A DNA stretch of 36,299 nt from Pelagibacteraceae bacterium AG-313-A04 (lineage in GTDB: Bacteria; Pseudomonadota; Alphaproteobacteria; Pelagibacterales; Pelagibacteraceae). Of this stretch, positions 27,690 to 31,897 are shown one piece after another. The stretch is taken from assembly GCA_003284275.1 (NCBI GenBank), contig QBVU01000008.1, positions 1 to 36,299 on the forward strand, given 5' to 3'. The notes below the pieces were generated by a model. That model had not been told where the DNA came from, searched no databases, and saw only the letters and a list, made by a program, of their open reading frames with translations. Both the position numbers and the translations under genes were made by a program. Position 1 is the stretch's first letter. Every line of letters starts with the position of its first letter.

Positions 27690-28289
27690 TTATTTGAGCA
27701 GTATAAATAAACCAGTTAAAACTAATAAAACGGCTAGTAAATATTCAATAATTTTTTTTATTTTAATATCATTTATAAATATTCTTAAGCCACTCCCAAA
27801 TAGTGCCCATAAGCTTATAGTTGGAAAACATATTATTGCAGCTGTAATTGTTACAAAAGCAATTCCAATAAAGATATTTTCCTCAGTAGGAAAAAATCCT
27901 GAGGCAACCGTAACGGCAATTGACCAAGCTTTAGGATTTATAAATTGAAATAAAGAAGCTTCATAAAATCTTAATGGTCTACCAGTTTCTTTTTGAACCA
28001 TACTAAATGAACCAAGCATTTTCCAACCTAAATAAACTAAATAAATAAAACATAAAATTTTCATATAAAATTGAACTTGAGGGTAAAGTAAAAATAAATT
28101 TGCTAAACCAAAACAAGTTAATCCTATTTGTAAAATGTGACCTAAGGGAATACCAATTAAATGCGGCAAAGTTCTAACAAATCCAAATTTCATTCCGGAA
28201 GCAGTAAGCATTGCATTATTTGGACCTGGAGTAAAAAACATTGTAAAGTAAAACGCTGCTAATGCAGAAAATAAAGTAAAAGTAATCAT
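27690..28289 (-). CDS. LysE-family translocator
   Basis: The 199-residue inner-membrane protein has about six hydrophobic segments and the LysE/RhtB signature near the N-terminus (FTPGPNNAMLTASGMKFGF). The conserved LYLGWKML follows the third helix and QFINPKAWSIAVT sits mid-protein. LysE/RhtB proteins export amino acids such as lysine, arginine, homoserine or threonine; the substrate is not predictable. Its ATG overlaps the gph stop by 4 bases (ATGA), so the two genes are translationally linked. Confidence 0.88.
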   Translation of the reverse strand: MITFTLFSALAAFYFTMFFTPGPNNAMLTASGMKFGFVRTLPHLIGIPLGHILQIGLTCFGLANLFLLYPQVQFYMKILCFIYLVYLGWKMLGSFSMVQKETGRPLRFYEASLFQFINPKAWSIAVTVASGFFPTEENIFIGIAFVTITAAIICFPTISLWALFGSGLRIFINDIKIKKIIEYLLAVLLVLTGLFILLK

Positions 28290-28948
28290 AAATATTTTTC
28301 TATTATTTTTTCAAAACCAATAAAGTTATTAATTAATTCATCATGCTTAATTTCTTTTTCAGATTTTTCAGTATACCCATCTTTAACTAATACAAATGGT
28401 AAATTGGCATTATGAGCTGAATTTGCATCAACTTCACTATCACCAACCATAATTGTTTTTTTGAGATCTCCGCCTATGATTTCAACTACATCAGTTAAAT
28501 GTCTAGGATCAGGTTTATTGAAAGAAAAGGTGTCACAACCCGCAACGTATTCAAAATACTTGTATAAGTCTAATTTTTTTAAAAGATCCACTGCTAATCT
28601 TTCCTGTTTATTAGTACAAACCCCCATTGAAATATTTCTATTTTTTGCCCAATTTAAAAAATCAATAGATCCCTCTAAGGGTGTACTATTTCGATCAATA
28701 TTTTTTGCGTAATAATCAATAAATTCTTTAGTCATCTCCTTTTTTATTTTCTCGTCTTTTATTTCTTCTTTAAAAGATCTTTGCATCATCACCCATGCAC
28801 CTTTGCCTGCCAAGGATTTGATATCTGATAACTTTTTTTCTGCATGGCCAAATTTTTTCATCACATGGTTATGAGCAGCCATTAAATCCGGTGCTGTATT
28901 GACTATTGTACCGTCTAAATCAAAAAGAATTGTATAAATTTGAGTCAT
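28286..28948 (-). CDS. HAD-family phosphatase, phosphoglycolate phosphatase-like
   Basis: The 220-residue HAD hydrolase begins with motif [21 protein letters not shown] (nucleophile and acid-base Asp). It has motif II in MGVCTNKQ (Thr), Lys in SFNKPDPRH and motif IV in [12 protein letters not shown]. The cap type and NTAPDL segment match Gph, which removes 2-phosphoglycolate formed by DNA repair or oxygenase activity. Other sugar phosphatases of this subfamily look similar, so the substrate is only likely. It starts the minus-strand series gph-lysE-prpB-prpC. Confidence 0.83.
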
Positions 28949-29017
28949 TTTAAAAGTATTAAAAAGAAATATTTTGTGACTTATTTCAGATACATTATTA
29001 ATGTAAAGAAATTTTTA

Positions 29018-29662
29018 ATGAAAAGAAATAATAAATTAAACAAAGCTAACACCTATCGGCTTTCTCAAGAAGTTTTAAGAAATAAAGCTTTGACTAAAGG
29101 TGTTAATTTAATTGCTCCAGAGACAATTTTTTTATCCAAAGACACCTCATTCGGGAAAAATGTTACAGTAGAACCCTATGTTGTTTTTGGGCCTGGAGTT
29201 AAAATTGGTGACAATTCATTTATAAAGTCTTTTAGTCATATTGAAGGAACCAAAATTGAAAAAAATGTTGTTGTAGGTCCTTATGCAAGACTAAGAGAAG
29301 GAACCATTTTAAAAGCAAATACTAAAATTGGGAATTTTGTAGAAACAAAAAAATCAAATATAAATAAAAATTCTAAAGTTAATCATTTGTCCTATATTGG
29401 GGACACTTCTATAGGAAAAAATTCAAATATAGGTGCTGGAACAATAACTTGTAATTATGATGGAGTTAAAAAATCTAAAACCAAAATATCAGATAACGTT
29501 TTTATTGGTTCCAACTCTTCACTTGTCGCTCCAATTAAAATTGATAAAAATAGTGTTGTAGGTGCTGGGTCGGTAATAACTAAAAACGTTAAAAAGAAAA
29601 CGTTGGCTTTAACAAGATCTTCTCAGCTTGAAGTCAAAAACTATAAAAGAAAGAAAAAATAA
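29018..29662 (+). CDS. GlmU-like glucosamine-1-phosphate N-acetyltransferase (acetyltransferase half only)
   Basis: The 214-residue protein equals the C-terminal left-handed beta-helix domain of GlmU. The N-terminus ([20 protein letters not shown]) aligns with the NNRVQLA linker where the uridylyltransferase domain normally ends. Then come [25 protein letters not shown] and VNHLSYIGD with the catalytic His123, and [14 protein letters not shown] with CoA-site residues. It would make N-acetylglucosamine 1-phosphate for peptidoglycan and lipopolysaccharide; the UTP-dependent half must be supplied by another gene. ATG 29018 is chosen; a longer TTG reading would overlap the divergent gph start. 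It overlaps glmS by one base (TAATG). Confidence 0.85.
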
Positions 29663-31479
29663 TGTGTGGAATTATTGGTATCGCAAGCAATAAACCTGTT
29701 TCTATTAACATAATAAACTCTCTTAAAAAATTAGAGTACAGAGGGTATGACTCGGCTGGCATAGCAACTTTAACGGATAATACTATTAATGAAAAAAAAT
29801 GTTCTGGAAGAGTTGAAGAATTAGAAAAAATTTTATTTAAAACACCTTCAAATGGCAATATTGGAATTGGGCATGTGAGATGGGCCACTCATGGTGTGCC
29901 TAATATAACTAACGCACATCCACATTCATCTGAACAAGTTTCTGTAGTTCATAATGGCATTATTGAGAATTCTGATGAAATTAAAAAGGAATTAAAAGCT
30001 AAAGGAATTAAATTTAAATCTCAAACAGATACAGAAGTAGTAACATTATTAATCACTGAAGCTTTAAAAGAAAACAAGCCTTTAGAATCAGTATTTAAAA
30101 CGTTAAAAAAATTAAAAGGTAGTTTTGCACTTGGTATAATTTTTAAAAATTTCTCAAATATTATTATTGGAGCGAGAAGGGGCAGTCCATTAGCTGTTGG
30201 ATATTCAAAAGAGGAAAATTACATTGGTTCAGACTCTTATGCCTTGAAATCTATGACTAATAAAATTTCTTATTTAGAGGATGGAGAACTGTGTTTATTA
30301 ACTAAAGATGAAGTAAGTTTTTATGATGAACGTCTAAAAAAAATAAATAAAAAAATTCTTACATTGTCAGAAAATGGGTCCTCAGCAGATAAAGGTGAAT
30401 ATAAACACTTTATGGTTAAAGAAATTTTTGAACAACCTGATACTGTTAAGGAATGTATTGAAGAATATGTTGATAGCTCTAAAAAAAATATTAATATTCT
30501 TAATTTTCCAATTGATCCACAAAAAATAAATAAAATTATTTTGATAGGTTGTGGAACAGCTTATAATTCATGTTTAACAGCAAAATATTGGTTTGAAGAG
30601 TTAACTTCAATTGATGTTGAAATAGATATTGCATCAGAATTTAGATATAGAAATTTAAAATTTAATGCAAAAAACCTCTATATATTTGTCTCACAATCAG
30701 GAGAAACAGCTGATACTGCAGCAGCGTTAGATATATGTAAAAAAAATAACATTAAAACATGTTCAGTAGTAAATGTAATTGAAAGCACTATTGCAAGAAA
30801 TTCTGATTGGGTTTTACCTATCCACGCAGGTATAGAAATTGGTGTTGCGTCAACTAAAGCATTTTTAGGACAATTAACTGTACTTTACATTCTATGTTTA
30901 AAATTAGCGTTTGTAAGAAAAGATATAGATGAAAAAACATACGTAAAACATGTAACTAATCTAAAAAAATTACCTGACGCAATTAAGAAATGTATTAAAA
31001 GTGAAAACAATGTTCAGTTAATGGCAAAGGAATTTATTTCCGCAAAGGGATCAATGTTTTTGGGGAGAGGACCTTCTTTTCCTATTGCTTTAGAGGGTGC
31101 TTTAAAACTAAAAGAATTATCTTATTTACACGCGGAGGGTTACCCAGCTGGAGAAATGAAACATGGACCCTTAGCTTTAATCGAGGAGGGTTTACCAGTA
31201 ATAGTACTTGCTCCGATGGATAAATATTTTGAGAAAACAATTTCAAATATGCAAGAAGTTATAGCAAGAGGAGGCAAAATACTTTTTATTACCGATAATA
31301 AAAAAGAATCATTGAATGAGAATATTAGATTTGGTTTAAGGGTTCCTCATATTGATAATTTATTGTCACCTATTCTATTAACTTTGCCATTACAGATGTT
31401 AGCTTATCATGTTGCCTTATTAAAAAACTGTGATGTAGATAAACCTCGAAATTTAGCAAAATCAGTAACAGTTGAGTAA
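29662..31479 (+). CDS. glmS: Glutamine-fructose-6-phosphate aminotransferase (isomerizing)
   Basis: The 605-residue enzyme makes glucosamine 6-phosphate from fructose 6-phosphate and glutamine. It starts with [10 protein letters not shown], where Cys2 is the glutaminase nucleophile. The glutaminase domain includes GHVRWATHG and HNGIIEN. The two sugar isomerase domains carry GCGTAYNSC and SQSGETADT, then FLGRGPSFPIALEGALKLKE. It ends with the family tail DKPRNLAKSVTVE. Length matches the family. It forms a pair with the acetyltransferase gene upstream, consecutive steps in amino-sugar supply. Confidence 0.95.
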   Translation: MCGIIGIASNKPVSINIINSLKKLEYRGYDSAGIATLTDNTINEKKCSGRVEELEKILFKTPSNGNIGIGHVRWATHGVPNITNAHPHSSEQVSVVHNGIIENSDEIKKELKAKGIKFKSQTDTEVVTLLITEALKENKPLESVFKTLKKLKGSFALGIIFKNFSNIIIGARRGSPLAVGYSKEENYIGSDSYALKSMTNKISYLEDGELCLLTKDEVSFYDERLKKINKKILTLSENGSSADKGEYKHFMVKEIFEQPDTVKECIEEYVDSSKKNINILNFPIDPQKINKIILIGCGTAYNSCLTAKYWFEELTSIDVEIDIASEFRYRNLKFNAKNLYIFVSQSGETADTAAALDICKKNNIKTCSVVNVIESTIARNSDWVLPIHAGIEIGVASTKAFLGQLTVLYILCLKLAFVRKDIDEKTYVKHVTNLKKLPDAIKKCIKSENNVQLMAKEFISAKGSMFLGRGPSFPIALEGALKLKELSYLHAEGYPAGEMKHGPLALIEEGLPVIVLAPMDKYFEKTISNMQEVIARGGKILFITDNKKESLNENIRFGLRVPHIDNLLSPILLTLPLQMLAYHVALLKNCDVDKPRNLAKSVTVE

Positions 31480-31480
31480 A

Positions 31481-31897
31481 ATGAAATCAAATTATAAAGC
31501 GATGATTTTGTCGTGTATAGATCCAAGATTTCAGAATATTGTCTATAATTATTTAAAGAAAAAGAATCTAAACGGGAAATACAGCTCTTTTACTATTGCT
31601 GGTTCAGCTATAGGTGTTACAGCAAATAAATTTAAAAAATGGCATAAAGTTTTTTGGGATAATTTTGATACTTCTGTCAAATTACACAATATTAAAAAAC
31701 TAATAGTAATTAATCATCAAGACTGTGGTGCTGCAAAAATTATTAATGGAAAAAAAGAATTTTCAAAAATTAACGAATTGAAAGTTCATAAAAATTCTTT
31801 TAAAAAAATTAAAAAAATATTTAAGAAAAAATATCCAAAATTGAGGATTGAATTAAAAATTATTTCATTAAACAGCAAAGTTGAAACATTTAAGTGA
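31481..31897 (+). CDS. Short beta-carbonic-anhydrase-like protein
   Basis: The 138-residue protein has the beta-carbonic anhydrase metal site in order: Cys12 with Asp14-Arg16 (SCIDPRF) and His79-x-x-Cys82 (NHQDCG). The Asp-Arg dyad and all three zinc ligands are present. It is much shorter than typical beta-carbonic anhydrases (about 200 residues), like the compact CA-like proteins whose activity is often unproven. ATG 31481 lies 1 base after the glmS stop; TTG 31472 is an alternative. The C-terminus is rich in lysine and may be truncated relative to longer homologues. Confidence 0.7.
   Translation: MKSNYKAMILSCIDPRFQNIVYNYLKKKNLNGKYSSFTIAGSAIGVTANKFKKWHKVFWDNFDTSVKLHNIKKLIVINHQDCGAAKIINGKKEFSKINELKVHKNSFKKIKKIFKKKYPKLRIELKIISLNSKVETFK

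Follow-up and report, generated by a model that had tools for sequence, protein, structure and literature searches.

GlmU is usually regarded as one bifunctional enzyme and as an antibacterial target; UDP-GlcNAc is needed for both peptidoglycan and lipid A. In eukaryotes the corresponding steps are carried out by separate proteins, the acetyltransferase GNA1 and the pyrophosphorylase UAP1. Standalone uridylyltransferases related to the N-terminal domain of GlmU are also found in bacteria: MurU of Pseudomonas and Caulobacter serves, according to the available parts of the reports (PMC5371407, PMC13046382), in MurNAc-1-phosphate recycling, in organisms possessing GlmU. Similarly, GalU2 of Rhodococcus, a GalU duplicate, is reported in the accessible portion of its description (PMC9093745) to prefer an amino-sugar-1-phosphate, GlcN-1-P, a preference not linked in that portion to a GlmU devoid of its N-terminal domain.

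The SAR11 bacteria are among the most abundant groups of the ocean. In this work, we describe a glmU gene reduced to its C-terminal half in a Pelagibacteraceae draft genome, within a stretch of 36,299 nucleotides analysed as a whole, here called the window. The features of the locus are the following:

28286..28948, minus strand: divergent gph-like HAD phosphatase, assigned by profile search, possibly MupP-like
28949..29017, no strand: intergenic region of 69 bp, read from the sequence, presumed to hold the glmU-glmS promoter
29018..29662, plus strand: glmU, predicted glucosamine-1-phosphate N-acetyltransferase of 214 aa, made of a linker and a left-handed beta-helix, assigned by profile matches, alignment and residues
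29018..29095 (end approximate), plus strand: retained linker of roughly 26 codons, corresponding in alignment to the residues that follow the N-domain in full-length relatives
29662..31479, plus strand: glmS, its ATG sharing bases with the stop codon of glmU (TAATG)

The product shares with bifunctional GlmU, as known from E. coli and represented by the TIGR01173 and NF010933 families, the C-terminal acetyltransferase domain, the active-site residues and the glmS neighbourhood, its own start lying at the linker; in contrast, it lacks the entire N-terminal uridylyltransferase domain and scores under the family cut-offs. Like the eukaryotic pair, it implies two steps on two proteins, but the acetyltransferase is here a GlmU beta-helix, not a GNAT-fold GNA1, and no UAP1-type (PF01704) protein was found. 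Our reading, which we consider very probable, is that a bifunctional GlmU orthologue lost this domain in place, and that another enzyme is needed for UDP-GlcNAc formation. The literature searched, including the available parts of PMC3423634, PMC8231724, PMC5814848 and PMC11046441 and few subscription papers, contains no report of such a GlmU in SAR11, and an earlier one may exist.

The preliminary description, made from the sequence alone, had proposed that GlmU is cut back to its acetyltransferase domain and that the protein begins at the linker. Both points are confirmed by profile matches, which cover only the C-terminal half. NF010933 matches the ORF at positions 230–434 of 453 (310.9 bits, E 1.2e-92, against a cut-off of 505) and TIGR01173 at positions 224–451 of 452 (248.4 bits, against 366.85), so that the match begins within the linker. 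Pfam analysis returns hexapeptide repeats, and solved GlmU structures align with the ORF through their C-terminal halves. The ATG lies at 29018; starting from an alternative TTG at 28940, the longer ORF gains nothing in NF010933 score (311.0 bits), and in a related locus, L093, the reading frame opens right at the glmU ATG. The first codons of the glmU described here align with the segment following the N-domain in full-length relatives.

By sequence, the uridylyltransferase domain is absent, while the left-handed beta-helix domain is present with its catalytic residues. Each of the 11 positions checked that are catalytic or ligand-binding in E. coli GlmU keeps its residue: R333, K351, H363, Y366, N377, A380, N386, Y387, S405, A423 and R440 (E. 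coli numbering); positions were transferred through an ungapped alignment with H. influenzae GlmU. R333, K351, H363, A380, N386 and R440 are invariant in 106 sequences, comprising C-only and full-length proteins and two paralogues (counts leave aside 6 of the 80 related loci described below, missed by the motif filter). The only exceptions are found in the paralogues, at 366, 377, 387 or 405, and in six proteins of the sister family f2, where A423 is replaced by Ser. Intact residues and operon context indicate that the C-only protein most likely still acetylates glucosamine-1-phosphate to GlcNAc-1-phosphate.

The missing half had been said to leave no trace upstream, where a divergent gene lies, and this is borne out: the intergenic DNA is only 69 bp long and is followed by gph, leaving no room for a relic of the N-domain. 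Full-length relatives show the same order, with a divergent gph, glmU, glmS and an aroG-type gene, followed in family f1 by nadE in stretches long enough to show it (the names aroG and nadE are our reading of the sequence). Because of this common synteny, the C-only gene is recognized as the true glmU, an orthologue and not a paralogue. The genes gph and glmS start 685–763 bp apart in 18 C-only loci, compared with 1373–1416 bp in 11 full-length loci. In the best 80 of at least 494 confirmed relatives, all from public genomes titled Pelagibacteraceae, Pelagibacter or Pelagibacterales, no locus contains the N-domain, although one of the 80 has less than 1200 bp upstream, too little to judge; the same query recognized the domain in 11 of 11 full-length controls. 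In 79 of these 80 loci glmS lies downstream, and in 79 gph is divergent upstream.

The best NCBIfam score of the gph-like protein is phosphoglycolate phosphatase, under the cut-off. In the available part of a published table (PMC13046382), Caulobacter GlmU is CCNA_02389 and MupP is CCNA_02390; the two numbers being consecutive, the divergent gene may be MupP-like. A near-palindrome, tacattattaatgta, lies at 28991–29005, within the gph-glmU intergenic DNA, and a similar one is present in locus L148. A small ORF at 31472–31897, after glmS, is read as carbonic-anhydrase-like; among 31 compared loci it is matched only in L064, L065 and L093, all of genus g1, and is absent from two other g1 loci.

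The preliminary description had proposed a search for a standalone gene of the GlmU N-domain type, and had named a second full-length glmU as the finding that would make this gene a paralogue with another acceptor; neither was found. In the genome of origin, a draft 87% complete, a TIGR01173 search at E≤10 gave one long C-domain match (242 bits) and no second glmU; the best N-domain match, of 58 bits, falls in a CBS-domain nucleotidyltransferase. Complete relatives agree on the C-only state. None of 31 genomes of the genus, this one included, passes the GlmU cut-off, and each of eight single-contig C-only genomes has one GlmU match at E≤1e-25, with no second copy. A standalone N-domain was likewise rejected for the genus, the order sample and the best 80 of at least 494 related loci.

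Comparison of GlmU domain structure across Pelagibacterales, also proposed earlier, separates four C-only genera from two full-length genera and a full-length sister family. In the order sample, 130 of 147 genomes match GlmU at E≤1e-25. The 83 matched genomes of g1 (11), g3 (69), g4 (2) and g6 (1) show the C-domain alone; eight of them are single contigs, and one, G098, is C-only provisionally, its match lying at the edge of a contig. Full-length GlmU is found in g2 (2 of 2) and g5 (3 of 3), and in the sister family 40 of 42 matched genomes exceed the cut-off, the other two being fragmentary. Six g3 and 11 f2 drafts, all incomplete, gave no match and are excluded from the C-only counts. Within the genus, the C-domain is detected in 19 of 31 genomes; the other 12 are incomplete drafts with no C-domain match at E≤1e-10, similarly excluded. 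The clade-wide loss of half a core enzyme in many SAR11 bacteria is thus real, and the full-length relatives, which keep the same operon, offer a natural before/after comparison.

Two or more losses are the simplest reading of the gene trees. In a tree of six neighbour proteins, the full-length g2 and g5 are placed beside g1/g3/g6, with the C-only g4 outside them. A tree constrained to unite all C-only genera fails the AU test (p 0.017), whereas the SH and KH tests do not reject it (p 0.19); a tree uniting g4 with g2 and g5 withstands the AU test (p 0.34). Constraint trees were built in fast mode. In the GlmU C-domain tree, g4 joins g2 (support 91) and g5 joins g1/g6 (88). Loss followed by regain, or tree error, is a possible alternative to repeated loss.

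In the process that we propose, loss in place of the N-terminal uridylyltransferase (pyrophosphorylase) domain would have removed about 0.6–0.7 kb from the 5' end of glmU, at the divergent gph, glmU-glmS locus. GlcN-1-P supplied by GlmS and GlmM would be acetylated by the C-only GlmU to GlcNAc-1-phosphate, which another resident sugar-1-phosphate nucleotidyltransferase would join with UTP to give UDP-GlcNAc. All 17 genomes examined have a GlmM above the family cut-off. The genome of origin features an LpxD-FabZ-LpxA-like cluster, in which the score of the LpxD piece is above one family cut-off; for a 59-aa piece of the LpxA-like protein, the best-scoring family is LpxA, under the cut-off, the whole 269-aa ORF being judged by reading. 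The LpxA substrate is UDP-GlcNAc. With GlmS and GlmM present along with an LpxA-like protein, the cell should both produce GlcNAc-1-P and consume UDP-GlcNAc, which supports, as an inference, the earlier suggestion of a separate enzyme.

The candidates for this step are few, which makes the question directly testable. PF12804 detects six proteins in the genome of origin, read as MurU-like, RmlA, CBS-domain nucleotidyltransferase, IspDF, KdsB and GalU-like; NCBIfam scores were obtained for five of them, the identity of IspDF being a sequence reading. The complete C-only genomes with fewest PF00483 proteins, G041 and G050, contain three each at E≤1e-5: ManC-like (again a sequence reading), GalU-like and MurU-like. 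As the replacement enzyme, the GalU-like protein comes first, at a little short of an even chance, followed by the MurU-like protein, which we hold to be distinctly less probable, and by something else, somewhat less probable again.

In the g1/g3/g6 clade, the leading, as yet unproven, candidate is the GalU-like protein, which features GlmU-type residues in two motifs and might use GlcNAc-1-P. The reported preference of the Rhodococcus GalU-type enzyme for GlcN-1-P (PMC9093745) speaks in favour of this candidate. Fourteen positions split the GalU-like proteins of g1/g3/g6 (26 sequences) from those of g2/g4/g5 (4 sequences); 6 of the 20 fetched loci (five of f2, and G084) were dropped from the comparison, being other nucleotidyltransferases, read as RmlA-like. 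At two of the 14 positions the split coincides with residues invariant in 11 GlmU N-domains of the order, while the g2/g4/g5 state coincides with an invariant GlmU residue at none. These two are the LGTG position and that located four residues before the motif lysine: Thr and Ser are found there in 26 of 26 g1/g3/g6 proteins and in 11 of 11 GlmU N-domains, versus Leu and Lys in all four g2/g4/g5 proteins. Thr at the LGTG position is also known in other members of the superfamily, such as GlgC. In addition, the Tyr of the RYG motif is changed to Trp in 25 of 26 g1/g3/g6 proteins and in none of the four others. Because the sites are few and probably belong to one branch, on which the change may have been a single event, these residues are suggestive only.

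Profile scores were rejected as a separator of the two GalU sets, their ranges overlapping both for TIGR01099 (GalU; 237–264 bits in three g1/g3/g6 proteins, 240–272 in g2, g4 and g5) and for the GlmU profile (49–57 and 46–54 bits, respectively). All six proteins tested, from C-only and full-length genomes, lie under the TIGR01099 cut-off (237–272 bits against 326.8). Distances of GalU relative to neighbour genes are 0.6x in g1 and 1.4x in g3, and 0.5x in the full-length g2. Against replacement by GalU, g4 is also C-only, yet the single g4 protein examined keeps the ordinary residues. Moreover, the available part of PMC8231724 describes a glycosyltransferase of a SAR11 strain that uses UDP-glucose; UDP-glucose is probably still needed, and may have to come from the GalU-like enzyme itself, which counts against its replacement role. 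A full account, put forward tentatively and at rather less than an even chance, is that in the main C-only lineages the GalU-type enzyme for UDP-glucose acquired, by convergence, a GlmU-like recognition and came to serve as an additional, or even the main, UDP-GlcNAc pyrophosphorylase, freeing the glmU N-domain for loss, while g4 would have lost it separately, relying on another resident enzyme.

The main rival to the GalU-like candidate is MurU, which, besides its normal role in MurNAc-1-P recycling, might also convert GlcNAc-1-P to UDP-GlcNAc; we regard this as possible but doubtful. The two substrates differ by the lactyl group, and MurU was discovered, as stated in the available part of PMC5371407, through its likeness to the GlmU transferase domain. 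All 24 genomes tested have a MurU-like gene, whether their GlmU is C-only or full-length, and this shared presence could account for repeated loss; an amgK match adjoins the gene in 23 of 24 loci. In a complete g4 genome (G039, locus L103) amgK lies elsewhere in the genome. The protein scores 129 bits with NF045761, against a cut-off of 250 that none of 14 control genomes passes. However, MurU looks weakly constrained in C-only groups, with within-group distances 3.6x (g1), 3.5x (g3) and 2.4x (g4) those of concatenated neighbour genes; the values in full-length groups are 3.1x (g5), 2.7x (f2) and 0.95x (g2, one close pair). Tightening of constraint after N-domain loss was therefore rejected for these groups, and the fast evolution speaks, not decisively, against a new essential role. 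The retention of PF00933 (NagZ-type) and AmgK-like proteins means that ordinary recycling explains the presence of MurU; the idea that recycling was lost, which would have argued for a new MurU role, was rejected, PF00933 being found in 23 of 24 genomes and amgK in 7 of 7.

A route outside both proteins, such as exchange from UDP-glucose by a GalT-type enzyme or the action of an enzyme not yet recognised, seems unlikely, even though GalU-like or MurU-like replacement is itself still a candidate only. PF01704 (UDPGP) exceeds its cut-off in none of 24 genomes, the only weak matches being two, of about 15 bits, in g5; a UAP1-type enzyme is accordingly rejected, softly, as none of 14 control genomes matched either.

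That the C-only protein is a paralogue acting on another acceptor, with normal UDP-GlcNAc synthesis encoded elsewhere, is very improbable. Hexapeptide acetyltransferases often switch acceptor, and two f2 genomes do contain second, C-only GlmU-like proteins with altered active-site residues; the present gene, in contrast, shows synteny with full-length glmU, overlap with glmS and intact GlmU residues, and the single match in each of the eight single-contig genomes contradicts this reading. An assembly error or a recent pseudogene, conceivable in a draft genome of this completeness, has a negligible probability, being in effect refuted by the complete genomes, by the conserved residues and by the recurrence of the C-only state in 83 genomes of four genera and in the best 80 of at least 494 loci.

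The two f2 paralogues (L089 and L090, in G105 and G087) accompany full-length GlmU, have no glmS or gph match in their stretch and differ at residues 366 and 387 and at one more each; they are probably other acetyltransferases. In a wider survey of the class, covering 241 genomes, at least 230 matched GlmU and at least 210 exceeded the cut-off, among the matches listed. In families f39, f49, f77 and f123, the best GlmU E-values resemble those of C-only genes in all sampled genomes (3, 2, 2 and 2, respectively), and these families may represent further C-only lineages.
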